Positions 5,625-32,837 of a DNA stretch of 64,000 bases are shown here, one piece after another. The DNA is from Actinoallomurus purpureus (GTDB taxonomy: Bacteria > Actinomycetota > Actinomycetes > Streptosporangiales > Streptosporangiaceae): NCBI RefSeq assembly GCF_024055795.1, contig NZ_JAMXMY010000020.1:62001-126000 (forward strand), read 5' to 3'. The notes beneath the pieces were generated by a model. The model saw only the letters and a list, made by a program, of their open reading frames with translations. It did no database searches and had not been told where the DNA came from. A program made the translations under genes and the position numbers. Numbering within the stretch: the first letter of the stretch is position 1; every line of letters begins with the position of its first letter.

Positions 5625-7331
5625 TCAGGGCCCCGCGGTGAGCACGGCGGCCCTGGCCGCGGCGGCGTCGGCGGCGTCGAGCGCACGCCGGGCCAGTTCC
5701 TCGCACTCGGCGCGCTCGTACGCGGCGAGACGGGCGCGTACGGCGGGCACGCTGCGCGGGCTCATCGACAGCTTCGTGACACCCAGGCCGACCAGCACCG
5801 GCGCGAGGGCGGGATCCGCGGCCGCCTCGCCGCACACCCCGACGGATCTGCCACTGCGCCGGCCCGCGTCCGCGCAGGTCGCGATGAGTTGCAGCAGGGC
5901 CGGCTGCCATGGGTCGAGCAGGTCGGCCAAGGCTCCCGACTGCCGGTCGGCGGCCAGGGTGTACTGGCTGAGGTCGTTGGTCCCGACGCTGAGGAAGTCG
6001 GCGACCTCGACGAGGCGCTCGGCCCGCAGCGCGGCGGCCGGCACCTCGACCATCACGCCCGCCGTGCGCAGGCCGAACGCGCGGGCCCGCGCGACGAAGT
6101 CCGCCGCCTCCGGTGGCGTCGACACCATGGGGGCCATGACCCACACGTCGGCGGTCGTCCGTTCGGCGGCCCGCGCGATCGCCGCCAGCTGGGTGTCGAG
6201 GATGCCGGGCCGGTCACGCGCCACCCGCAGGCCGCGCACGCCGAGCGCCGGGTTCGGCTCCTCCGGGAGGCCGAGGAACGGCAGCGGCTTGTCGGCGCCG
6301 GCGTCCAGCGTCCGCACGACGACGGTGCCCTCCGGGAAGTGGGAGAACACCTCGGCGTACGCGGTGACCTGTTCGTCCAGGCCGGGCGCGTCCCTGCGGT
6401 CGAGGAAGAGGAACTCGGTGCGGAACAGGCCCACCCCGGTGACCCCGTCGAGGTCGGCTCCCCGGAGGTCGGCGGCGGACCCGATGTTGACCATGAGGTC
6501 GACAGGATGCCCGTCCGCCGTACGCCCGGGGCCGCGTCCGGCGGCGAGCCTGCTCCGCTCGTCGGCCGCCCGTGCGCGTACGTCGGCCGCCTCCTCCTCG
6601 CCGACACCCGCGCCGACCCGCCCGGAGGTGCCGTCCACCGTCACCAGCGTGCCGTCCGGGACGTCCAGGATCCCGGCGCAGCCCACGACGGCGGGCAGGC
6701 CCAGCGCCCGGGCGAGGATCGCGGTGTGGCTGGTCGGCCCACCGCGCTCGGTGACCAGGGCGAGCACGGTCTCCGGGTCGAGGCCGACCGTGTCGGCGGG
6801 CGCGAGGTCGTCGGCGATCAGGACGAATGGGTGCCCGGGCGCCGGCAGGCCCGGCATCGGCCGGCCGAGCGCGGCGGCGATCGCCCGGTGCGCGATGTCG
6901 TCGAGGTCGGCCGCGCGTTCGCCGAGGTACCCGCCGAGCGCGGCGAGGATCTCCCGGTGCCGGTCGAAGGTGGACCGCAGCGCGTGCGGGGCGTCGTCCC
7001 CGCTCCGTACGCGCTCGGCCACCCCCTCCCGCAGGGTCGGATCCGCGGCGATCATCGCCTGCGCGGACAGGATGTCGCGGGCCTCGCCGGTGGCCGCGTC
7101 GGCGCGGGCCCGCAGGTCGGCCTCGGTGGCCTCCAGGGCCCGTACGGCGTCGGCGAGTTCGCGGTCCGGGTCGCTGACCGGGAGGTCGGTCGGGGCAGGT
7201 TGGTCGGGAAGAACCGGGCGCGGATCCGGCAGCGCCGGCGGGGACGCCATCCGCGCCACCGGGCCTGCGGCCAGGCCGGGCCCGACTCCGATCCCGTGCA
7301 GGACTCGCGGCGGGGCGTCGAGGTCAGGCAT
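5625..7331 (-). CDS. ptsI: Phosphoenolpyruvate-protein phosphotransferase (PTS enzyme I)
   Basis: The 568-residue protein has the usual length of enzyme I. It takes phosphate from phosphoenolpyruvate onto His202 (GGPTSHTAILARALG) and passes it to HPr. The N-terminal swivelling and HPr-binding domains precede the C-terminal PEP-binding barrel, recognisable by LFRTEFLFLDR, the arginine-rich NPALGVRGLR, SVGTNDLSQYTLAADR and the catalytic cysteine region VGVCGEAA. The start chosen overlaps the HPr stop by eight bases (ATGCCTGA) and gives the family N-terminus (VLHGIGVGPGLAAG). An upstream start would lie inside the HPr gene. Confidence 0.96.
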   Translation of the reverse strand: MPDLDAPPRVLHGIGVGPGLAAGPVARMASPPALPDPRPVLPDQPAPTDLPVSDPDRELADAVRALEATEADLRARADAATGEARDILSAQAMIAADPTLREGVAERVRSGDDAPHALRSTFDRHREILAALGGYLGERAADLDDIAHRAIAAALGRPMPGLPAPGHPFVLIADDLAPADTVGLDPETVLALVTERGGPTSHTAILARALGLPAVVGCAGILDVPDGTLVTVDGTSGRVGAGVGEEEAADVRARAADERSRLAAGRGPGRTADGHPVDLMVNIGSAADLRGADLDGVTGVGLFRTEFLFLDRRDAPGLDEQVTAYAEVFSHFPEGTVVVRTLDAGADKPLPFLGLPEEPNPALGVRGLRVARDRPGILDTQLAAIARAAERTTADVWVMAPMVSTPPEAADFVARARAFGLRTAGVMVEVPAAALRAERLVEVADFLSVGTNDLSQYTLAADRQSGALADLLDPWQPALLQLIATCADAGRRSGRSVGVCGEAAADPALAPVLVGLGVTKLSMSPRSVPAVRARLAAYERAECEELARRALDAADAAAARAAVLTAGP

Positions 7332-20475: not shown

Positions 20476-21049
20476 GCTCGGTCTCCAGGTTGTGGCGGGC
20501 GGCGGCCTCCCACCGTTCGCGGCCCGGTGTCGTACGGAACAGCGCCGGGGCGTCGAGCAGGGCGCGCAGCACGTCGGCGCGGCCCTGCCGGAACGCCTCG
20601 TCGGGGACCGCGGCGTACTCCTCGCGCACGGCGGCGGCGTACGCGGCGTAGCGCTCCGGGTCGGCGGCCAGGACGGCCAGGTCGGCGTCGCTCAGGACGG
20701 CGCCGTTGCGGTCGCCGGGCTCCGGGTCGTGCGCGGCGGTCATCCGGACCAGGCGGGCGACCTCCGCGACCGTCTCGGGCGGTAGGTCGGTGTCGGCGAG
20801 CATCCGCTCGGCGAGGACGGCGCTGCGCTCCTCGTTGTCGGCGCGCAGCGGCTGGTACACCGCGTCGTGGAACCACGCCGCGAGGCGTACGGCGTCGGCG
20901 TCGTCGGCCTCGCCGGCCAGCTCGTCGATCCGGTCGAGGACCTCGGTGAGGTGCTCGGTGGTGTGGTAGCGGCGGTGCGGCTCCTCGTAGCGGCGGACCA
21001 GCTCGGCGCCGAGGATCCCGGGGCCGGACCACCGGGTCAGCAGACTCAT
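20453..21049 (-). CDS. HD-like metal-dependent phosphohydrolase
   Basis: The 198-residue all-helical protein has HRRYHTTEHLTEVLDRIDEL and AAWFHDAVYQPLRADNEERS, the His and His-Asp metal ligands of the COG4339 branch of HD hydrolases, followed by MTAAHDP and LSDADLAVLAADPERYAAYA. Substrates of this branch are unknown. The ATG overlaps the stop of the ABC ATPase gene by four bases, so the two are coupled. Confidence 0.85.
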   Translation of the reverse strand: MSLLTRWSGPGILGAELVRRYEEPHRRYHTTEHLTEVLDRIDELAGEADDADAVRLAAWFHDAVYQPLRADNEERSAVLAERMLADTDLPPETVAEVARLVRMTAAHDPEPGDRNGAVLSDADLAVLAADPERYAAYAAAVREEYAAVPDEAFRQGRADVLRALLDAPALFRTTPGRERWEAAARHNLETELMLLGRA

Positions 21050-21828
21050 GAAACGGTCCTCGCGGTCCAGCGGCCGCCGGACCTGTCGATGGTGATGGGG
21101 TGGTCGAAGCACGCGCTGATCAGCTCGGTGGTCAGCACGTCGTCGGCGGGTCCCGAGGCCAGCACCCGCCCCTGCCGCAGGAGGATCGCGTGGGTCGTGC
21201 TGGCGGGCAGCTCCTCGAGATGGTGCGTGACGAGAACGCTGGTCAGCGACGGCTGCGCGCGCCGGAGCTCGTCGATAGAGGTCAGCAGCTGCTCGCGGGC
21301 GGCGACGTCCAGGCCGGTGGCCGGCTCGTCGAGCAGGAGGACGCGCGGCCGGGGCATCAGGGCGCGGGCGATCAGGGTGCGCCCGCGCTCCCCGTGCGAG
21401 AGGGTCGGCCAGCGCGCGTCGCGGCGCGCGCCGAGGCCGAGTAGGTCGATCATCTCGTCCGCGCGGTCCAGGTCTTCCGGCGCGGGCTTCCAGTGCGGCA
21501 CGAGCTCGATGCTGCCGGTGACGCCGGTGAGGACGACCTCGTGCACCGTACGGGCGGACCGCAGCGGGTGGTGCGGGTTCACGTGGCCGATCCAGGCGCG
21601 CACCTCGCGGACGTCCACCCGGCCGAGCCGGTGACCGAGGATCTCCACCCCACCGCTCGTCGGGTGCTGGTAGGCGCCGACGAGACTGAGCAGCGTGGAC
21701 TTCCCGGCGCCGTTGGCGCCCAAGAGGGCCCAGTGCTCGCCCTCGTGGACGGTGAGCGACACGTCGTCGAGCAGCGCCCGGTGATCCCGGACGAAGCACA
21801 CGTCTTCCACACGCAGCACAGGAGTCAT
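21046..21828 (-). CDS. ABC transporter ATP-binding protein, ModF-like
   Basis: The 260-residue ATPase has Walker A GANGAGKSTL, signature LSHGERGRTLIARAL, Walker B RVLLLDEPATGLDV and the switch His in VLVTHHLEELP. The spacing and the HWALLGANGAGK region resemble the COG1119 group. No permease or binding protein is adjacent. Its start faces the iron-box operon across about 90 bases, so it could share iron control. Role in siderophore or metal handling is inference. No clear ribosome binding site precedes the ATG. Confidence 0.88.
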   Translation of the reverse strand: MTPVLRVEDVCFVRDHRALLDDVSLTVHEGEHWALLGANGAGKSTLLSLVGAYQHPTSGGVEILGHRLGRVDVREVRAWIGHVNPHHPLRSARTVHEVVLTGVTGSIELVPHWKPAPEDLDRADEMIDLLGLGARRDARWPTLSHGERGRTLIARALMPRPRVLLLDEPATGLDVAAREQLLTSIDELRRAQPSLTSVLVTHHLEELPASTTHAILLRQGRVLASGPADDVLTTELISACFDHPITIDRSGGRWTARTVS

Positions 21829-21914: not shown

Positions 21915-21933
21915 TTAGGTAAGCCTAACCTGA
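21915..21933 (+). promoter_or_regulatory. Iron box (DmdR/IdeR-type operator) of the siderophore operon
   Basis: TTAGGTAAGCCTAACCTGA closely matches the actinobacterial DtxR/IdeR/DmdR consensus TTAGGTTAGGCTAACCTAA. It lies 15 bases upstream of the first siderophore gene start and about 85 bases from the divergent ABC ATPase gene. Iron-loaded repressor would shut off transcription when iron is plentiful. Confidence 0.9.
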
Positions 21934-21948
21934 CTGCTCGGGAGACTC

Positions 21949-23067
21949 GTGCGGCTCTACATCGTGGCGGGCAAGCGGACCGACTCCGTTACCCATGGCT
22001 TTCTGCCCGCGGCCGAGTCACTCGGCCTGGACGTGACCCTCCTCACCGACCGGCCGTGGCCCCAGGAGACGATCCCGTGCGACGTCACAGACTTCCGGGC
22101 GATCATCGACGCCGTCTCCCGGCACGGGGCCCCGGCGGCGATCTTCTCCAACAGCGACCACCTGCAGGCGTCCACCGCCCTGGCCGCGGAGTACTTCGGG
22201 CTGCCGGGCAAGGACTGGCGGGCAGCGCTGCGCACCAAGAACAAGGCGCTCATGCGCCGGACGCTGGGCGGCGTCTTCGCCGTCGAACTCCTGCCGGGCC
22301 AGGAGTCCCCCGCCCTCGCGGACGCCCCGTACCCCCTGGTCGTCAAGCCGCGCGAGGGCGTCGCCAGCGAGGACGTCTTCCTCGTACGTGACCCGGCCGA
22401 GCTGGCCGCGCGCTGCCGCGAGATCTGGGCCCGGCGGCCGGGCGCCCTCGTCGTCGAGGAGTACCTCCCCGGCGACCTGCACACGCTGGAGACGCTGAAC
22501 GGCCGGGTCCTCGGTGGGTTTCGCACGACGCTGTCACCGCCGCCGCACTTCGTCGAGGAACGCCTCGACTGGTCGCCGCCGCCCCGCGCCGACCAGGTCC
22601 TGGACGCGCTCCGGAGGCTCGGGGTCGGCTTCGGCGCCTGCCACACCGAGTACGTCGTCCACGAGGGCCGGGCACGGGTCGTCGAGATCAACTACCGGAT
22701 CATCGGCGACCACTGCGACTTCCTGCTCGGCGAGCTGCTCGGCGTCCCGATCTTCGAATGGGTGCTCCGCGCCCACCTCGGAGAACCGCTGCCGGAGCCG
22801 CCGGCCGCCACCGGGCACGCGGCGGTCGACTCGGTGATCGCGGACCGGTCCGGCACGCTCACCGCGGCGCCCGAGCGGCAGGAGTACGAGGACGACGGCG
22901 TACGGGTGGCCTACTGGCCGGTCCACGCGACCGGCGACGCGATCACGCTGACCCGCACGAACCGCGACTACCTCGGTACGATCCGCGCCGTCGGCCCGGA
23001 CGCCGCCCGCGTCGACGCGGCGATCCGGCGATTCCGCGCGCGGCACCGCTGGGAGATCACCGTATGA
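21949..23067 (+). CDS. ATP-grasp ligase of siderophore operon (PvsA-like)
   Basis: The 372-residue protein has an ATP-grasp layout: N-terminal Rossmann-like domain (MRLYIVAGKRTDSVTHGFLP), lysine-containing nucleotide loop PYPLVVKPREGVASEDVFLV, hinge GALVVEEYLPGDLHTLETLN, and metal-binding end RARVVEINYRIIGDHCDFLL. It would join a carboxylate to an amine using ATP. In vibrioferrin synthesis the equivalent enzyme, PvsA, is proposed to act on alanine and 2-oxoglutarate. The GTG follows GGGAG. It is the first gene of four with four-base overlaps. Confidence 0.82.
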   Translation: MRLYIVAGKRTDSVTHGFLPAAESLGLDVTLLTDRPWPQETIPCDVTDFRAIIDAVSRHGAPAAIFSNSDHLQASTALAAEYFGLPGKDWRAALRTKNKALMRRTLGGVFAVELLPGQESPALADAPYPLVVKPREGVASEDVFLVRDPAELAARCREIWARRPGALVVEEYLPGDLHTLETLNGRVLGGFRTTLSPPPHFVEERLDWSPPPRADQVLDALRRLGVGFGACHTEYVVHEGRARVVEINYRIIGDHCDFLLGELLGVPIFEWVLRAHLGEPLPEPPAATGHAAVDSVIADRSGTLTAAPERQEYEDDGVRVAYWPVHATGDAITLTRTNRDYLGTIRAVGPDAARVDAAIRRFRARHRWEITV

Positions 23068-24707
23068 GCTACCCGCCCGCGCTGAGTTCCGGGCCGCCGC
23101 CGAACTCCGGGCCGTCGCCGGGGTCGGGCTCGTCGCCCGTTCCCGCCGCCCGCGAAGGGCGAGGTTCCCGCGGCAGACAGGAGGAGTACCTCGGCGCGCG
23201 GGTCCTGGACGCCCTGCTGCGCGAGGACTACGGCGGGCTGTCACGACGCGTCGAGGGCGACCGGCTCACCCTGCCCGGCGGCCGGGTCGTCGTGCTCGGC
23301 TCGGAGCCGACCGGGGCACCCGGCCGGTTGGGGCGGTATCCCGGATTCCTCGCCGAGCGCGTCGTGGACGACACCGTCGGGCTCGAGGAGGTGCTCGGCG
23401 TCGTGCGTGCGCTGGCCGACCCGCGCGACGACGTCGCGGCGTTCGACCGTGAGTGCCGGGAGACGCTGCGGGCTCTGCGCCTGTACGCGGCCGTACGCCC
23501 GCGCCCGGCCGGCGTCGCCCGGTACGACGCCCTCGCCGCCGCCGTGGACCACCCGGTGTATCCGACCGCCCGCTGCCGTCTCGGCCTGGACGAGCGTGAC
23601 CTGCTGGCCTACGCCCCGGAGTTCGGGCCCGCGTTCCGGCTCGCGTGGACCGGCGTGCCGCGCTCGGATTGCCACGGCGACCGGCCCTCCTGGTGGCCCG
23701 ACCCCGGTGACCTCGGGCTACCCGCGGACCATGACGTGTTCCCCGTGCATCCGCTGACCGCCCGCCTGGTCCCCACGATTCCGGGTCCGGCCGTGACGGT
23801 CCGGCCGACCCTGTCGATGCGCACGGTGGCGATCGGCGCCCGTGAGCACCTGAAGCTCCCGCTGCCGACCAGCACGCTCGGCCTGCGCAACCGCAGGGTG
23901 ATCGTGCCCGGCACCCTCGCCGACGGCGCGCTCGTCGAACGCGTGCTGCGGGCCGTCATCGAGCGGGAGCGGCCGCCGGTGCTGCTCGCCGACGAACAGA
24001 CGTACGGCCACGCGGACGACCCGCTGCGCGGCTACCTGGTGCGGCGCCTGCCCGCCGACGGCGTGCCGGTCGCGGCGTTGCTCGCCCGGACGCCGGACGG
24101 CCCGTACGTCATCGAGGAGCTGACCGACGACGTCGCCGGGTTCTTCGGGGCCTACCTCGCCGTGCTGTTCGACTGGAACGTCATGCTGGCGGCGAGGTAC
24201 GGCATCGCGCTGGAGGCACACCAGCAGAACGTGTCGATCGTGCCCGGCGATCCACCGCATCTGATGATCAAGGACAACGACGGGGCGCTCATCGACCTGC
24301 GCCGGCTCGCCCGCGCGCTGGGCCGAGCCCCCGGGCAGGAGGAGTTCGCCGACCCGCGGCTGGTGACCACCGACCCGGAGGCCCTGGCCCGCGTCCTCAC
24401 CACGATCACCGTGCACCTGTGCGCCGGGGCGCTCGCCTTCGGTCTCGCCGAGCGCGGGCTCCTCGACCTCGGCACGGGCCTGGGCCTCGTCCGCGACCGG
24501 CTCGGCGCCGCACTGGACGCGTACGACGACACCGGCTTTCTGCGGGCGCGGACGCTCGACGCCGACCGGCTGCCGGTCAAGGCGATGGTCACCGCCGGGA
24601 CGCTGGTCGGCAAGGACCGCACCGGCGCGCAGGACATCAACAAGCACTACGGCCCGCCCGGGCCGAACTACCTCAAGCCCCCGCACCCGAAGAGGTCGAC
24701 CACGTGA
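23064..24707 (+). CDS. NRPS-independent siderophore synthetase, IucA/IucC family (first copy)
   Basis: The 547-residue protein has a disordered Pro/Ser-rich start of about 40 residues, then family motifs: VDHPVYPTARCRLGLDERDL, YAPEFGPAFRLAW, VFPVHPLTARLV, the adenylate-binding HLKLPLPTSTLGLRNRRVI, EAHQQNVSIV and MIKDNDGALID. It activates a carboxyl of citrate or a related acid as the adenylate and condenses it with an amine or alcohol. By operon order it corresponds to PvsB. The ATG overlaps the previous stop by four bases. Confidence 0.9.
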   Translation: MSYPPALSSGPPPNSGPSPGSGSSPVPAAREGRGSRGRQEEYLGARVLDALLREDYGGLSRRVEGDRLTLPGGRVVVLGSEPTGAPGRLGRYPGFLAERVVDDTVGLEEVLGVVRALADPRDDVAAFDRECRETLRALRLYAAVRPRPAGVARYDALAAAVDHPVYPTARCRLGLDERDLLAYAPEFGPAFRLAWTGVPRSDCHGDRPSWWPDPGDLGLPADHDVFPVHPLTARLVPTIPGPAVTVRPTLSMRTVAIGAREHLKLPLPTSTLGLRNRRVIVPGTLADGALVERVLRAVIERERPPVLLADEQTYGHADDPLRGYLVRRLPADGVPVAALLARTPDGPYVIEELTDDVAGFFGAYLAVLFDWNVMLAARYGIALEAHQQNVSIVPGDPPHLMIKDNDGALIDLRRLARALGRAPGQEEFADPRLVTTDPEALARVLTTITVHLCAGALAFGLAERGLLDLGTGLGLVRDRLGAALDAYDDTGFLRARTLDADRLPVKAMVTAGTLVGKDRTGAQDINKHYGPPGPNYLKPPHPKRSTT

Positions 24708-26347
24708 CACCGCTCGCCCGAGCCGTGCCCTCGATTTCCCCGACCCGTCCCACCGTCGGCCCCTCTCCTGCGGGGCGGGTCGACCCGGACGAGGCCACCG
24801 TGCTCGCCCTGCTCAACTGCGCGGTCCGCGAGCTCTGCGCGCCCGAGCGGCAGATCCGGGTCGGCGAGGCGTACGTCACGGCCCGGCTCCCCCGTGTCGG
24901 TGTCACGCTGCGCGCCCGCCTGCGCCGACCTCCGCTGATGAGCCCCCGGCTGGCCGGTCCGATCGAGGAACGACGCGACGGCTGGGTGCCCGTGGACTGG
25001 CGGCGTATCACCGACCTGATCGCCGGGGAGCTGGAACTGACGACGGGGACGGCGAACCCGGAGTTCGCCGCGCAGGTGGCGGCCAGCCGTGACGCCATGG
25101 ACCTCATCGCCCGGCTCCGGAGGCCGGCCGCCGCCGACCCCTTCCTGCGGTCGGAGCAGTCGCTGATCGCGGGCCACCGGTTCCATCCCTCGCCCAAGTC
25201 CCGTCAGGGAGCCGACTGGCCCGACTACGCTCCCGAGCTCGGAGCCCGCTTCCCACTGCACTGGCTGGCCGTCCGGGAGGACGCGGTCCTGGAGGAGGGC
25301 GACGTCTCTGTGCTGGACCGGCTCGGCCCGCCGGTCCGCGCCGGCTACCGCGTCCTCCCCGCCCACCCGTGGCAGCTCTCCCTGCTCCGCCCCGAGTCCG
25401 ACGCCATCGTCGATCTCGGACCGTACGGCCCGGAGGCGGCGCCGACGTCCTCCGTGCGGACCGTGTACGTCCCGGACGCCTTCCTGAAGTTCAGCCTCGA
25501 CGTCCGCATCACCAACTGCGTGCGCAAGAACGCCTGGTACGAGCTGTCCGGCGCGGTGGCTCTGACGCGGGCGCTGCGGCCGGTGTTCGACGGGCTGCCC
25601 TGCGAGCTGCTGACCGAACCCGGCTACCGGACCGTGTCCGTCGGCGGCACCCGCCTTCGCGAAGGACTCGGTGTGATCGTGCGAGACGGCGTACGCGGCC
25701 TGCCGGGCACGCCGCTGCTCGCCGCCGCCATCGCCGACCCGGACGGCGACGGCCCCGCCGCCGCGTCCACGCTGCTCGGCGACGACGCCTCGCCGGACCG
25801 GGTGCTGGCCTGGTGGGACGCCTACGTGGGACACGTGGTGCCCCCAGTCCTGCACGCCTACCTGCGGCACGGCGTCGTCCTCGAACCCCACCTGCAGAAC
25901 GTCCTGATCGTGGTCGACGGCGACGGCGTGCCGGTCCGGGCGGTGTTCCGCGACCTGGAGGGCACCAAGCTCCTGCCGGAGCCGTGGGAATCGTTCCTCG
26001 CGGACCTGCCCGGCCCCGTCGCCCGCTCGCTCACCTACGACCCCGACCGCGGCTGGAACCGCGTCGTCTACTGCCTGTTCGTCAACCACCTGGCCGAGGT
26101 CCTGGCCGCCCTCGCGGACCTGTGCCCGTCGCTGGAACCCGCGCTCTGGCGAGTGGTCCGGCGGCACGTGGCCCGCTGCGCCGAGGAGACACCGGCGGGG
26201 ACCGACGGCGCGGCGCGGCTGCGGGCCCTACTGGCCGGGGCCCCACTGCCGGCAAAGGCCAACCTGCGCACCCGGTGGGCCCGCGACCCCGACCGGCAGG
26301 CGACCTACGTCCCGGTGCCCAACCCGCTCGCCGAGGCCCGCGCATGA
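24704..26347 (+). CDS. NRPS-independent siderophore synthetase, IucA/IucC family (second copy)
   Basis: Also 547 residues but clearly diverged from the preceding gene product. Motifs: GHRFHPSPKSRQGADWPDYA, VLPAHPWQLSLL, the adenylate site TSSVRTVYVPDAFLKFSLDV with ITNCVRKNAWYELSG, and LEPHLQNVLIVVDGDGVPVR followed by FRDLEGTKLL. HPSPKSR is the classic IucC-like motif. By order it matches PvsD, thought to join serine to citrate. GTG start overlaps the previous stop by four bases. The exact acyl and nucleophile substrates cannot be read from sequence. Confidence 0.92.
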   Translation: MTPLARAVPSISPTRPTVGPSPAGRVDPDEATVLALLNCAVRELCAPERQIRVGEAYVTARLPRVGVTLRARLRRPPLMSPRLAGPIEERRDGWVPVDWRRITDLIAGELELTTGTANPEFAAQVAASRDAMDLIARLRRPAAADPFLRSEQSLIAGHRFHPSPKSRQGADWPDYAPELGARFPLHWLAVREDAVLEEGDVSVLDRLGPPVRAGYRVLPAHPWQLSLLRPESDAIVDLGPYGPEAAPTSSVRTVYVPDAFLKFSLDVRITNCVRKNAWYELSGAVALTRALRPVFDGLPCELLTEPGYRTVSVGGTRLREGLGVIVRDGVRGLPGTPLLAAAIADPDGDGPAAASTLLGDDASPDRVLAWWDAYVGHVVPPVLHAYLRHGVVLEPHLQNVLIVVDGDGVPVRAVFRDLEGTKLLPEPWESFLADLPGPVARSLTYDPDRGWNRVVYCLFVNHLAEVLAALADLCPSLEPALWRVVRRHVARCAEETPAGTDGAARLRALLAGAPLPAKANLRTRWARDPDRQATYVPVPNPLAEARA

Positions 26348-27459
26348 CGGCGCCGCCCCCCGAGGCCGTCCGGGAACGCGCCCTGTCGACGCCGCTGCCC
26401 GCCTACGTCTACGACCTGGACGGACTCCGGGCCCACGCCGCCTCGGTCCGTGCGGCGACCCCGGTGGAGATCTTCTACGCGGCGAAGGCCAACCCCGACC
26501 CGCGCGTCCTCACCGCCCTCGCCCCGTACGTGGACGGCGTCGAGGTCTCCTCCGGCGGCGAACTCGCCCACGTGCGGGCGGCCCTTCCCGGCGCGCGCCT
26601 GGCGTTCGGCGGACCGGGCAAGACGGACGAGGAACTCGCGTCCGCGGCCGGCACCGGGGTCGACCGGATCCACGTCGAGAGCCCCCGCGAGCTGGAACGC
26701 CTCGCCGCCCTGCGCCGGGAGACGGACGTGCTACTCCGGGTCAACCTGCCGGTCGCGATCAGCGGGGCGGCCCTGCGGATGAGCGGCCCGTTCGGCATGG
26801 ACCCCGAGGCCCTCGGCGCCTGCCTGGACATCCTGGAGCAGGCACCCTGGCTGACGCTTCGCGGTCTGCACGCGCACCTGGCGTCGGGGCTGGAGGCCGA
26901 GCCGCTTCTGGAGGTCGCCGCCCAGGTCCTCGGCTGGGCGCGGACCTGGATGGACGGCCCGAAGGAGGTCAACCTGGGCGGCGGCATGGCCGTCGACTAC
27001 CGGAACCCCGGCGCCCGCTTCGACTGGGCGGCGTACGGCGCGGGCCTGGCGTCGCTGCGTCGGCCCGAGGAGACGCTGCGGATCGAACCGGGCCGCGCGC
27101 TGACGGCGTACTGCGGGTGGTACGTCACGGAGGTCCTCGACCTGAAACGGTCGCACGGCGAGTGGTACGCGGTCCTGCGCGGCGGCACCCATCACCTGCG
27201 CACCCCGGTGACGAAGGGCCACGACCAGCCGTTCGCGGTGCTTCCGACGGGCAAGCGGCCGGGCGCGAGTGACGCGGTGACGCTGGTCGGGCAGCTGTGC
27301 ACGCCGAAGGACGTGTTCGCCCGGCAGGTCCCGGTGGATCGGATCGCCCTCGGCGACGTCGTGGCCTTCGCCCTCGCCGGCGCGTACGCGTGGAACATCT
27401 CCCACCACGACTTCCTCATGCACCCGAAACCCATGTTCGAGTACGTCGGCCATGAATAG
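26344..27459 (+). CDS. PLP-dependent decarboxylase, diaminopimelate/ornithine type (PvsE-like)
   Basis: The 371-residue fold-type III enzyme has the PLP lysine in EIFYAAKANPDPRVL, the glycine loop VNLGGGMAVDY, IEPGRALTAYCGWYV, and the partner-subunit residues QLCTPKDVFA and AYAWNISHHDFLMHP. In siderophore operons such enzymes (PvsE, SbnH, AcsE) decarboxylate an amino-acid unit, often after attachment to citrate. Here the expected unit is seryl, giving ethanolamine. Start ATG overlaps the previous stop by four bases. It is the last gene; a hairpin follows. Confidence 0.88.
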   Translation: MTAPPPEAVRERALSTPLPAYVYDLDGLRAHAASVRAATPVEIFYAAKANPDPRVLTALAPYVDGVEVSSGGELAHVRAALPGARLAFGGPGKTDEELASAAGTGVDRIHVESPRELERLAALRRETDVLLRVNLPVAISGAALRMSGPFGMDPEALGACLDILEQAPWLTLRGLHAHLASGLEAEPLLEVAAQVLGWARTWMDGPKEVNLGGGMAVDYRNPGARFDWAAYGAGLASLRRPEETLRIEPGRALTAYCGWYVTEVLDLKRSHGEWYAVLRGGTHHLRTPVTKGHDQPFAVLPTGKRPGASDAVTLVGQLCTPKDVFARQVPVDRIALGDVVAFALAGAYAWNISHHDFLMHPKPMFEYVGHE

Positions 27460-29087: not shown

Positions 29088-29519
29088 TCAGGCCGGCGAG
29101 GCGATCGGGAGCCCCGCGTCGGCCGCCGCCGCCGCGAGTCTCTGGTCATAGGTGACGAACGCGGTCAGCCTGCCACCCAGCCGTGTCGCCGTCGCCAGAT
29201 GGATCGCATCGAGCGTCCTGAGGAAGGGCTCCTTCCTCGCTGCCGCGCCCATCAGGATCTCAGAACTGACAGGCAGGACACTCACCCGGTTCATCGCCTC
29301 GCCGATCTTGCCGATCGCCTCTTCGGTCTGTTCGACATCGACGAGCCAGCCCTGATCATCATGACTGAGGCGCCAGTTGGCCCGCACGATCTCGGTTCGC
29401 GCCAGTTCGGAACTCACTTGCGCGTCGTCGGGATGAGCGCGAAGGAACGAACGCAGGGCCGAGGTCTCGGGGGCTTCCCGCACGAGTTTGAGCAGCGCGC
29501 AGGTATCGAGGTAGATCAC
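29088..29519 (-). CDS. PIN-domain ribonuclease toxin (VapC-type)
   Basis: The 143-residue protein has the four acidic PIN residues in place: D5 (MIYLDTCALLKL), E43 (SELARTEIVRANW), D104 (FLRTLDAIHLATA) and D125 (FVTYDQRLAAAA). Such proteins are Mg2+-dependent endoribonucleases that cut tRNA or rRNA when released from antitoxin. The ATG overlaps the antitoxin stop by four bases, the usual coupling for such pairs. Confidence 0.9.
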   Translation of the reverse strand: MIYLDTCALLKLVREAPETSALRSFLRAHPDDAQVSSELARTEIVRANWRLSHDDQGWLVDVEQTEEAIGKIGEAMNRVSVLPVSSEILMGAAARKEPFLRTLDAIHLATATRLGGRLTAFVTYDQRLAAAAADAGLPIASPA

Positions 29520-29836
29520 CAGCGTTCCTCTTCTCTCATGACCGCGAACACGTCATCAAGTGAACGGCCGTCCACAAGGGCAGGAAGAGGCTCGACGTCG
29601 GCCACGCTCTCGTTCAGGGGAGCGGGGATCAACTCGCCGCGTGCGACCATCGCGCGAATCAGCGCTTCGTCCGGAGAAACGGGCGTCAAGCGCGCGACGA
29701 CCTCCCCCCGGTTGGTGATCTCGGCGGCCTCCCCCGCCTCGGTCAGTTGCCGGATCACCGCCGCGGTGTTCTTCTGCAACTCACGGACTCCGACCCGGCG
29801 AATGTGCGGTTCCGGCTCGATCGGCTCTGCGGTCAT
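29516..29836 (-). CDS. Phd/YefM-family antitoxin
   Basis: The 106-residue protein contains RRVGVRELQKNTAAVIRQLT and AAEITNRGEVVARLTPV, the DNA-binding Phd/YefM fold that neutralises PIN toxins and represses the operon. A C-terminal acidic/hydrophobic arm (ADVEPLPALVDGRSLDDVFA) would wrap the toxin. No ribosome binding site precedes it. A promoter is placed so that the transcript should begin at or next to this ATG, pointing to leaderless translation; the ATG nine bases upstream overlaps the -10 box and is therefore not preferred. Confidence 0.88.
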   Translation of the reverse strand: MTAEPIEPEPHIRRVGVRELQKNTAAVIRQLTEAGEAAEITNRGEVVARLTPVSPDEALIRAMVARGELIPAPLNESVADVEPLPALVDGRSLDDVFAVMREEERW

Positions 29837-29843
29837 GTACGTC

Positions 29844-29872
29844 ATGATACGCCGATGTACAGCGCCTTGTAA
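29844..29872 (-). promoter_or_regulatory. Promoter of the toxin-antitoxin pair, leaderless configuration
   Basis: On the minus strand TTACAA and TATCAT are separated by exactly 17 bases. The antitoxin ATG lies seven bases after the -10 box, the usual distance to the transcription start. A GTAC/ATGAC-rich dyad overlaps the -10 region and could be the antitoxin operator. Confidence 0.6.
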
Positions 29873-29909
29873 GCAGTACGTCACTTTCCGCAGCCACCGG
29901 GCGTACCCG

Positions 29910-29938
29910 TTGACGGAAAAGGTTTTCACATCTAGGTT
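29910..29938 (+). promoter_or_regulatory. Promoter of the GH35 beta-galactosidase gene
   Basis: TTGACG and TAGGTT are separated by 17 bases, and the start codon lies about 30 bases further on, behind GGAG. It diverges from the toxin-antitoxin promoter, with the two -35 boxes about 38 bases apart. Confidence 0.55.
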
Positions 29939-29969: not shown

Positions 29970-32837
29970 ATGCGCGGAAGCCGCCTGCCGCTCCTCATCG
30001 TTCTCGCCGCCCTTCTCTCCACGGTCCTGCCGACGTCGGTCGCCGGTGCCGCCTCGACGCCGGCCGTCGGTTCCGGGAGCCCCGCCGTGTCCACGCCGGT
30101 CGGCGCGCCGGCTACCACTCCAATGGGCTCAGCCACGGCGAGGACCGACGCGGGACCGGTTCGGCACACGATCGCCTACGACCACTACTCGCTGCTGATC
30201 GACGGGAAGCGGGAGTACATCTGGTCCGGGGAGTTCCACTACTTCCGGCTGCCGAACCCGGACCTGTGGCGGGACATGCTGCAGAAGATCAAGGCCTCGG
30301 GGTTCAACACCGTCTCGCTGTACTTCAGCTGGGCTTACCACTCCCCCGCGCCGGGGCGGTACGACTTCAGCGGCGTGCGCGACGTGGACCGGCTGCTGCG
30401 GATGGCCGAACAGGCGGGCCTGTACGTCATCGCCCGGCCGGGGCCGTACATCAACGGGGAGCTGGACGCCGGCGGGTACCCGGGCTGGCTGCTGACGCAG
30501 AAGGGCCGGGCGCGCAGCGCCGCCTCCGACTACACGGCGGCCTACCGCGAGTGGCTCGGGCACATCGATCCGATCATCGCCCGGCACCAGCTGACCAACG
30601 GGACCGGGTCCGTCATCCTCTACCAGGTCGAGAACGAGTACGACGGCTCGGACGCGACGTACATGACGCAGCTCGCCGAGCAGGCCAGGGCGGACGGCAT
30701 CACGGTCCCGATCTTCCACAACGACAAGAAACGCCAGGGCAAGTGGGCCTCCGGAGCGGGCGCGCCCGACCTGTACGCCTCCGACACCTACCCAGGCACG
30801 TCGGTGACCGACTACTCGTTCATGCGGAGCTTCACGGGGCCGAACCGGCCGCTGTTCTGGGCGGAGTTCCAGGGCGGCTGGTTCCAGCCGTGGGGCGGCG
30901 GGTCGTACGAGGAGAACCGGACGAAGTTCGGCCCGTCGTTCGAGCGCATCACGTACGGGAACAACATCGACAATCACTTCACGCTGCAGAACCTCTACAT
31001 GCTGTACGGCGGGACGAACTGGGGCTGGCAGGCCGACCCGAACGTCGTCTACACCTCGTACGACTACGGCGCGGCGTTCGACGAGTCCCGGCGGCTCACC
31101 GCGAAGATCCCGGTGCTGAAGCAGCAGGGGTACTTCGTGCAGTCCGTCGAGCCGTTGCGCAAGACCGACGACCTGCCCGGTCAGCCGGAGCACTCCGGCG
31201 CGGCGGTGCACGTCGACGCCGACCGGAACCCCGACGACGGAACGACCTTCTACTTCCTCCGGCACGAGGACATCAAGCAGACCACCGACGAGGCGACCAC
31301 CCTGCGCGTCGAGACCTCCGACGGGACGTACACGGTGCCGCAGCAGCCGGGGACCGCGATCCACGTGAACGGGCCGGACTACAAGATCCTGACCGCCGGG
31401 TACACGATGGACCGCCAGCGCCTCGTCTACTCCACGTCCGAGATCATGACGCATGAGGATCTCGGCGACCGGGACGTCGCGCTACTGCACGGCCGTAAGG
31501 GAGAGGCGGGCGAGACCGTCCTGCGGTACGCCTCGCAGCCGCGCGTCGACGTCCTGGCGGGCGACGTACAGGCGACGTGGTCCGGGTCCGATCTGCGGCT
31601 GAACTACACGCACGACGGGCTCGCCCGGGTGCGGATCAGCGGCGGCGGGCGTGCCCCGCTCGACCTGCTGCTGGCCGATGACGACACCGCGTCGACGTTC
31701 TGGCGGCCCGGCGGGAAGGTCCTCGTACGCGGGCCGTACCTCGTCAAGACGGCCGAGCGCGACGGCGCCACGTTGCGGCTCACGGGCGAGACCGAGCAGG
31801 CCGGTCCGCTCGAGGTGTTCGCGGGTCCCGGCGTCCGAACGGTGCTGTGGAACGGCCGGCCGGTGCGCACGGCCCGTACGGCGTCGGGGTCGCTGCTGGG
31901 CGCGGTGCCCGGACCACGCGCCGCGAACCTTCCCGCCCTGACCTCCTGGCGGCTCCACGAGGACACCCCGGAGGCCGCTCCCGGGTTCGACGACTCCGGC
32001 TGGACCGCCGCCGACCACCAGACGACCGACAACCCCACGCAGCCGAAGACGCTGCCCGTCCTGTACGCCGACGACTACGGCTTCCACCACGGCGACGTCT
32101 GGTATCGCGGACGGTTCGACGGTACGGCGGCGGGCATCTCCCTGACGGCCGGGACCGGCAAGGCCGGCGTGTGGTCGGTGTGGGTCAACGGGACGTTCCT
32201 CGGCACGGTGTCGACCGGGACGGGCGGACAGAACTCCAGCCGGGACTTCGCCCTCCCACCGGAGGCGCTCGGCGCGCACAACGTCGTGTCCGTCCTGGTC
32301 CGGAACATGGGCCACAACGAGGACGGCGGAAGCAACGACGCGCACAAGAACCCGCGCGGCCTGCTGGCGGCCTCCCTCACCGGCTCCGACGCGGCCCTCA
32401 CCTGGCGGATCCAGGGCGGCGGGAACGACGAGGTTCGTGGACCGCTGAACAACGGGGGCCTGCACGGCGAGCGGGCGGGATGGACGCTCCCGTCCTTCTC
32501 CGACCGTACGTGGGCGCGGACGGCGGCACCGAGCGGATCTCCTACGCCGGGGATCGCGTGGTACCGGACGCGGGTGCGGCTCTCGCTGCCCAAGGGGCAG
32601 GACACTCCGCTCGTCCTGCGGTTCACGGGAGGGCAGGCCGCCCGGGCACTGATCTTCGTCAACGGCTGGAACCTCGGCCAGTACGTCGCCGACGTCGGAC
32701 CGCAGCACGACTTCGTGCTCCCGCCCGGAGTGCTCCGGACGAACGGCGTCAACACGATCGCGCTCGCGGTCTGGTCCTACGACGGCACGGGCGGCCTCGG
32801 CCAGGTGACGCTCGAACGCGCGGAGGCCGCCCAGTAA
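29970..32837 (+). CDS. Secreted GH35 beta-galactosidase
   Basis: The 955-residue enzyme has a signal peptide (LPLLIVLAALLSTVLPTSVA) and an Ala/Thr/Pro-rich linker, then a GH35 TIM barrel from about residue 68: YIWSGEFHYFRLPNPDLW, FNTVSLYFSWAYHSP, RPGPYINGELDAGG. The proton donor is in YQVENEYDG (E223) and the nucleophile in FWAEFQGGWFQPWG (E299). Following beta domains include jelly-roll modules with WYRGRFDG and VWSVWVNGTFLGTV, and a last one with ARALIFVNGWNLGQYV. It releases terminal beta-galactose from polysaccharides outside the cell. GGAG lies five bases before the ATG. Confidence 0.95.
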   Translation: MRGSRLPLLIVLAALLSTVLPTSVAGAASTPAVGSGSPAVSTPVGAPATTPMGSATARTDAGPVRHTIAYDHYSLLIDGKREYIWSGEFHYFRLPNPDLWRDMLQKIKASGFNTVSLYFSWAYHSPAPGRYDFSGVRDVDRLLRMAEQAGLYVIARPGPYINGELDAGGYPGWLLTQKGRARSAASDYTAAYREWLGHIDPIIARHQLTNGTGSVILYQVENEYDGSDATYMTQLAEQARADGITVPIFHNDKKRQGKWASGAGAPDLYASDTYPGTSVTDYSFMRSFTGPNRPLFWAEFQGGWFQPWGGGSYEENRTKFGPSFERITYGNNIDNHFTLQNLYMLYGGTNWGWQADPNVVYTSYDYGAAFDESRRLTAKIPVLKQQGYFVQSVEPLRKTDDLPGQPEHSGAAVHVDADRNPDDGTTFYFLRHEDIKQTTDEATTLRVETSDGTYTVPQQPGTAIHVNGPDYKILTAGYTMDRQRLVYSTSEIMTHEDLGDRDVALLHGRKGEAGETVLRYASQPRVDVLAGDVQATWSGSDLRLNYTHDGLARVRISGGGRAPLDLLLADDDTASTFWRPGGKVLVRGPYLVKTAERDGATLRLTGETEQAGPLEVFAGPGVRTVLWNGRPVRTARTASGSLLGAVPGPRAANLPALTSWRLHEDTPEAAPGFDDSGWTAADHQTTDNPTQPKTLPVLYADDYGFHHGDVWYRGRFDGTAAGISLTAGTGKAGVWSVWVNGTFLGTVSTGTGGQNSSRDFALPPEALGAHNVVSVLVRNMGHNEDGGSNDAHKNPRGLLAASLTGSDAALTWRIQGGGNDEVRGPLNNGGLHGERAGWTLPSFSDRTWARTAAPSGSPTPGIAWYRTRVRLSLPKGQDTPLVLRFTGGQAARALIFVNGWNLGQYVADVGPQHDFVLPPGVLRTNGVNTIALAVWSYDGTGGLGQVTLERAEAAQ

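Follow-up and report, generated by a model that had tools for sequence, protein, structure and literature searches.

The genome of Actinoallomurus purpureus carries, in a 64,000-nucleotide stretch of contig NZ_JAMXMY010000020.1 (positions 62,001 to 126,000, hereafter the window), an operon of four overlapping genes preceded by an iron box. This operon very probably directs the biosynthesis of a vibrioferrin-type carboxylate siderophore built on citrate, and its expression would be repressed by a DtxR/IdeR-family regulator when iron is plentiful. The initial annotation of this sequence had placed the iron box and the four genes at 21915..27459, with the gene set and order of pvsA, pvsB, pvsD and pvsE minus pvsC. 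The coordinates proved correct, and the assignment agreed with blastp, with the order of annotated clusters and with a tree of nonribosomal peptide synthetase-independent siderophore (NIS) synthetases. The five features, hereafter the box and genes A, B, D and E, are as follows.

21915..21931, plus strand: predicted DtxR/IdeR-type iron box, TTAGGTAAGCCTAACCT; exact pattern match, 17 bases upstream of the first gene
21949..23067, plus strand: gene A, PvsA-type ATP-grasp ligase, 372 residues, GTG start (blastp, 11-row alignment, Pfam below cut-off)
23064..24707, plus strand: gene B, PvsB-type NIS synthetase, 547 residues, IucA/IucC and FhuF domains (blastp, tree, Pfam)
24704..26347, plus strand: gene D, PvsD-type NIS synthetase, 547 residues, GTG start, also related to AcsD (blastp, match to solved AcsD)
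26344..27459, plus strand: gene E, PvsE-type pyridoxal phosphate (PLP) decarboxylase, 371 residues (blastp, Pfam, match to a solved structure)

Gene content and relation to pvs-type clusters

All four reading frames are intact, and each of the three gene junctions, that of B and D included, is a 4-base overlap. The order A-B-D-E is that of pvs, A-B-(C)-D-E, minus C: B directly overlaps D, and no major facilitator superfamily (MFS) exporter gene corresponding to pvsC lies within the operon. Pfam recognized IucA_IucC and FhuF in the second and third proteins and Orn_Arg_deC_N, Orn_DAP_Arg_deC and Ala_racemase_N in the fourth, in every case above the cut-offs, while the matches of the first protein (LAL_C2, ATP-grasp_3, ATP-grasp_4 and ATPgrasp_N) all stayed below the curated cut-offs. 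The two NIS proteins are distinct from one another (28% identity across 331 residues, blastp). Taken with the blastp results, these matches bear out the earlier description of the operon as an ATP-grasp ligase, two different IucA/IucC synthetases and a PLP decarboxylase.

Reference clusters were identified by tblastn searches of plasmids, and their annotated genes were then examined. Five of them are of the pvs type (Vibrio fortis, Pantoea soli, Cupriavidus necator pHG1, Rhodococcus oxybenzonivorans pRB29 and Piscirickettsia salmonis), and all five have the order ATP-grasp, IucA/IucC, MFS, IucA/IucC and PLP enzyme; the first gene of the Pantoea cluster is annotated as 'siderophore biosynthesis protein PvsA' and the last gene of the Rhodococcus cluster as 'alanine racemase'. 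In blastp, each of the four window proteins matched the protein at the same position in all five clusters, and the comparison that had been proposed with the pvs proteins thus gave, with homologous clusters, four matches in order. The alignments of A with the pvsA-position proteins span nearly its full length, with identities of 48% (Cupriavidus pHG1), 46% (Rhodococcus), 41% (Pantoea), 37% (Vibrio fortis) and 33% (Piscirickettsia), and an 11-row alignment of A contains 60 invariant columns; membership of A in an unrelated ATP-grasp family, an objection raised beforehand, does not agree with these values. B showed 29–45% identity (195–345 bits) to the pvsB-position proteins and matched none of the solved structures searched at E up to 0.001. 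D was 29–44% identical to the pvsD-position proteins and matched solved AcsD with E=1e-66 over residues 92 to 544. E was 39–54% identical to the pvsE-position proteins, and its best solved match was 6knh, a 'probable diaminopimelate decarboxylase' (E=3.4e-84).

Compared with pvsABCDE of Vibrio parahaemolyticus, as represented by four homologous clusters (those listed above other than the Rhodococcus one), the window operon has the same four biosynthetic types in the order A-B-D-E, with 29–48% identity. It differs in having neither an MFS gene between B and D nor an adjoining TonB receptor or uptake genes, in the shorter length of its NIS proteins (547 versus 570–622 residues) and in their position in a clade of actinomycetes. 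The Rhodococcus pRB29 cluster, at 44–54% identity across the four proteins, is the nearest of the five references for B, D and E; A is closer to Cupriavidus. Unlike the window operon, that cluster has a linked MFS exporter, a citrate-lyase-family aldolase, a binding protein and ABC siderophore uptake genes.

A maximum-likelihood tree was built from 32 NIS proteins, after removal of the first 200 residues of the DesCD-like protein of the same genome; the program cautioned that some branches were long (AcsA, DesCD and one Streptomyces row) and that the composition of 12 rows, window B among them, was uneven. In this tree, B falls in a single PvsB group (support 100/99), inside an actinomycete subclade (100/100). 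D groups with the PvsD rows, in an actinomycete clade (99/95) that also contains one ungrouped Streptomyces protein. AcsD adjoins the proteobacterial PvsD rows (92/89), and the PvsD group therefore needs two changes; since AcsD stands beside the PvsD rows, D alone cannot tell PvsD from AcsD pathways.

The iron box and the operon in relatives

The box matched the iron-box pattern exactly, against a mean of 0.06 matches (up to 3 mismatches) in 100 shuffles of the window; its type and consensus are what we take to be those of DtxR/IdeR. Across the whole genome, ten sites match the 19-base form of the box with at most 3 mismatches, compared with four for the reversed pattern, and the operon box, with 1 mismatch to this form, is joint best with two other sites.

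A contig scan with the alignment of A gave at least 592 pattern matches, and at least 562 of these code for a relative by tblastn (E up to 0.001). The named loci are the best 80 of these relatives, and because only these were retained, the locus counts describe the nearest relatives of A. When the box was sought in 81 loci, the window included, over the stretch from 300 bases before the predicted start of A to 60 bases past it, it was found with at most 2 mismatches in 76 and with 3 in one more (77/81). Composition shuffles of the same upstream stretches gave a site with up to 4 mismatches in only 6 of 405 cases; the 81 loci, being relatives, are not independent trials. The iron box noted ahead of the operon thus recurs near the start of A in nearly all of these loci.

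The closest named homologues of A belong to Actinoallomurus soli (90% identity) and Actinoallomurus spadix (88%), in line with the actinomycete host that had been proposed. PvsA-like genes were present in 8/8 genomes of the genus (its own included; 80–90% identity in the 7 others) and in 90/150 genomes of the family at E up to 1e-20 (again its own included), with only 34% identity in one of them (G094). They were rarer in the class, with 30/394 genomes at E up to 1e-40, from 13/138 genera. Among the best 80 loci, in which decarboxylase matches below 250 bits were dropped as lysA-like, the arrangement was A-B-D-E in 63, A-B-C-D-E in 2, A-B-D in 12, A-B in 2 and A only in 1. The order A-B-D-E is therefore kept in 65/80, the exporter gene C being present in two of them (Streptomyces humicola and Streptomyces piniterrae); a missing exporter is the rule among the nearest relatives of the operon. 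In five loci the sequence stops no more than 5.2 kb past A, and three of these belong to the loci that lack E; sequence extending 10 kb beyond A is present in 11 of the 12 A-B-D loci. One metagenome-assembled actinomycete (L115) has A and B at the same site, with no D or E in the 10 kb behind. Two Streptomyces plasmids carry NIS pairs (L048:7475-10644 and L049:7814-11852), each with one PvsD relative (40% and 52%, respectively), with no PvsA-like gene in the stretch and, in L049, with a PvsE-like gene; these pairs perhaps represent another NIS pathway.

Gene calls based on a codon score were used to compare the neighbourhoods of 104 loci, some of which are the same site twice. A nudC-like gene was found in 90, a UvrD-like helicase gene in 74 and an HD-domain-like gene in 65. 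In most loci outside Streptomyces, the operon stands beside the nudC-like gene, helicases, and glutaredoxin-like and HD-domain-like genes; the Streptomyces loci of the set have different neighbours. Pfam recognized the nudC and HD copies of the window, the latter just under the cut-off, and the UvrD, helicase and glutaredoxin labels are what we presume these neighbours to be. The common neighbours favour vertical inheritance, and a recent horizontal acquisition was rejected in view of their presence in most family members together with the actinomycete clade of B (100/100). The actinomycete operons form a clade of their own, occupy one chromosomal site in most of the family members examined, and mostly have neither pvsC nor linked uptake genes.

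The initial annotation had regarded clusters of this kind as known from proteobacteria only, a view not supported, given their abundance in the family and two Streptomyces reports. The avs cluster of Streptomyces avermitilis (avsA-D, 7320-7323), which we liken to the operon by its description only, has four genes, the last annotated as diaminopimelate decarboxylase, and its product is described as a 'vibrioferrin-like polyhydroxycarboxylate siderophore'; in the table of that paper, avsA-C are labelled only as siderophore synthetase components, and the ATP-grasp nature of avsA is not evident from it (PMC9394381). In Streptomyces tunisialbus, an antiSMASH region is listed as 'Vibrioferrin 18%' (PMC7385001). 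Because a Streptomyces cluster has been described and such operons are common in the family, the taxonomic surprise of a vibrioferrin-type operon in an actinomycete is not supported. The reviews consulted discuss vibrioferrin-type genes in connection with marine Gram-negative bacteria; in this family, these genes also belong to the regular complement of many actinomycete genomes. Among papers covered by title or opening, subscription journals being outside this scope, none named the compound made by an actinomycete pvs-type operon.

Decarboxylase genes of the PvsE type also occur outside the operon. In 11/11 genomes chosen for lacking E in the operon stretch, such a gene was found elsewhere (best match 63–71% identical). 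Seven of these genomes share contigs with named loci, namely six of the 11 A-B-D loci with 10 kb behind and L115, in whose genome the gene is split in two pieces at contig ends. These genes weaken the idea that, in relatives without E, the serine carboxylate is retained in the product. The A. purpureus genome itself has a second, unlinked copy (G000:C22:260541-261653; L194:9505-10665) that is 66% identical to the operon copy, and relatives likewise carry such solitary copies, some of these relatives lacking an operon copy. In a decarboxylase tree of 34 rows, including 14 operon copies of relatives and 13/14 unlinked copies, a branch with 100/100 support has the window and Rhodococcus PvsE proteins together on its actinomycete side. 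Nine unlinked copies cluster together (100/98), the second copy of A. purpureus among them. In Streptosporangium violaceochromogenes, Planomonospora venezuelensis and G045, the unlinked copy nests with operon copies from related genera, as though it had been relocated, and the Microtetraspora copy was unplaced. None of 13 unlinked copies had an iron box (up to 4 mismatches) in the 300 bases upstream (shuffles, 6/280), the fourteenth having no upstream sequence; membership of these copies in the iron regulon is thus unsupported, and this result speaks against a role for them in the pathway.

Predicted product and alternative readings

The pvsABCDE genes of V. parahaemolyticus tie this gene set to vibrioferrin (PMC5577590, PMC5812596), and homologues of them are expressed in Piscirickettsia (PMC5199080). 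The building blocks of vibrioferrin are ethanolamine, alanine, 2-oxoglutarate and citrate, according to a 2017 review (PMC5577590). The product suggested at the outset for the window operon was a citrate-based carboxylate siderophore, and the pvs-type assignment of the four proteins supports this predicted chemistry well. AcsD activates citrate and couples it to either serine or ethanolamine. By analogy, the PvsD-type enzyme would carry out the same step, the PvsE-type enzyme would strip the serine carboxylate to yield the ethanolamine part, and the PvsA-type ATP-grasp and PvsB-type NIS enzymes would add an amino acid (alanine in vibrioferrin) and 2-oxoglutarate. Export and uptake would presumably rely on unlinked or shared transporters.

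Several points weigh against a vibrioferrin-type product. Two reviews divide the steps in a way that conflicts with the scheme above, assigning the citrate ester to PvsA and letting PvsE act on free serine (PMC5577590, PMC6836290); the former also states that the functions of the individual Pvs enzymes were untested (PMC5577590). The reference clusters are annotated homologues that stand in for the V. parahaemolyticus proteins, and 4/81 loci have no iron box (6 or more mismatches). A genome-wide search gave no close PvsC homologue (the best match to the Rhodococcus exporter had E=1.1e-4, 23 bits), and a search run without a positive control gave no match to the Rhodococcus binding protein. The genome encodes two Peripla_BP_2 proteins (E up to 0.001), one of them beside another siderophore gene set. 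This set (G000:C18) comprises the Peripla_BP_2 gene, the third IucA_IucC gene of the genome and an iron box of its own, and from its gene sizes and order it is probably of the desferrioxamine type; vibrioferrin-type genes coexist with it in this genome. A study on desferrioxamine synthesis reportedly deals with crosstalk between separate NIS pathways, which may matter here. The absence of pvsC lowers the case for a complete pvs operon and not that for pvs-type synthesis, because pvsC is the export part and not a biosynthetic step.

There is a sizeable chance, somewhat short of even, that the four enzyme types make a related, new carboxylate metallophore with another amino or oxo acid, as distinct from vibrioferrin proper. 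Such a product would be a special case of the vibrioferrin-type reading and does not oppose it. It would fit the placement of the actinomycete NIS proteins in their own clades, with 29–45% identity to the five cluster proteins, and the missing exporter gene in 78/80 named loci (five of which end at a contig end after A); however, the enzyme set and order are unchanged. A more specific proposal, which we regard as less likely than not, joins a siderophore unlike vibrioferrin to export unrelated to PvsC, to uptake unrelated to the Gram-negative system and to an unlinked PvsE-type group that could substitute for the operon copy.

An achromobactin- or staphyloferrin B-like siderophore, built from a diamino acid, citrate and 2-oxoglutarate, is most improbable. 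The relationship of two genes to the achromobactin system is clear: D is 31% identical to AcsD of Sodalis pSG1 (222 bits), in agreement with the structural match and the tree position described above, and E is 42% identical to AcsE (258 bits). However, the Sodalis cluster, which we take to be an achromobactin cluster with the corresponding gene names (its record gives domain names only), has three NIS genes, a citrate-lyase-family aldolase and an MFS gene, and no annotated ATP-grasp gene, so that A has no counterpart there. The achromobactin pathway uses three NIS synthetases, AcsA, AcsC and AcsD, and is not known to include an ATP-grasp gene, and the staphyloferrin B pathway uses the synthetases SbnC, SbnE and SbnF. 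B scored only 54 bits with AcsA, compared with 195–345 bits with the five PvsB-position proteins, and in NCBIfam, a weak test based on profile scores only, the values for SbnF (at most 40 bits) and SbnC (at most 21 bits) were far from the cut-offs of 900 and 700. Cluster content, the bits of gene 2, the NIS tree and these scores led us to reject both readings, that of staphyloferrin B provisionally and on profile scores; the grouping with achromobactin that the initial annotation had named as an objection was not observed, since the operon has two NIS genes plus an ATP-grasp gene and B lies in the PvsB group, D by itself being undiscriminating.

Least likely of all is a decayed operon, a remnant without export and unused for iron scavenging: neither an exporter nor an importer is linked, 11/80 loci are A-B-D without a decarboxylase in the stretch and one more is A-B alone with 10 kb behind, but the four frames are intact, the first gene is 80–90% identical in the 7 other genus genomes searched, the box persists with at most 3 mismatches in 77/81 loci, and a PvsE-type gene is present elsewhere in all 11 genomes without E (that with the split gene also being without D behind B).

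Genes flanking the operon

Upstream, a lone gene for an ATP-binding cassette (ABC) ATP-binding protein (21046-21819, minus strand) is divergent from the operon and is followed by the HD-domain-like gene, with no permease. Because this gene and the operon diverge, the iron box sits between the two. The same ABC gene was found at this site in L072-L077, six loci of one genus group. Downstream of the operon, the region 29088-29929 (minus strand) encodes a PIN-domain protein and a Phd/YefM-like antitoxin (a weak Pfam match, below the cut-off), which are likely a toxin-antitoxin pair. Further on, a large gene at 30123-32837 encodes a family 35 beta-galactosidase.

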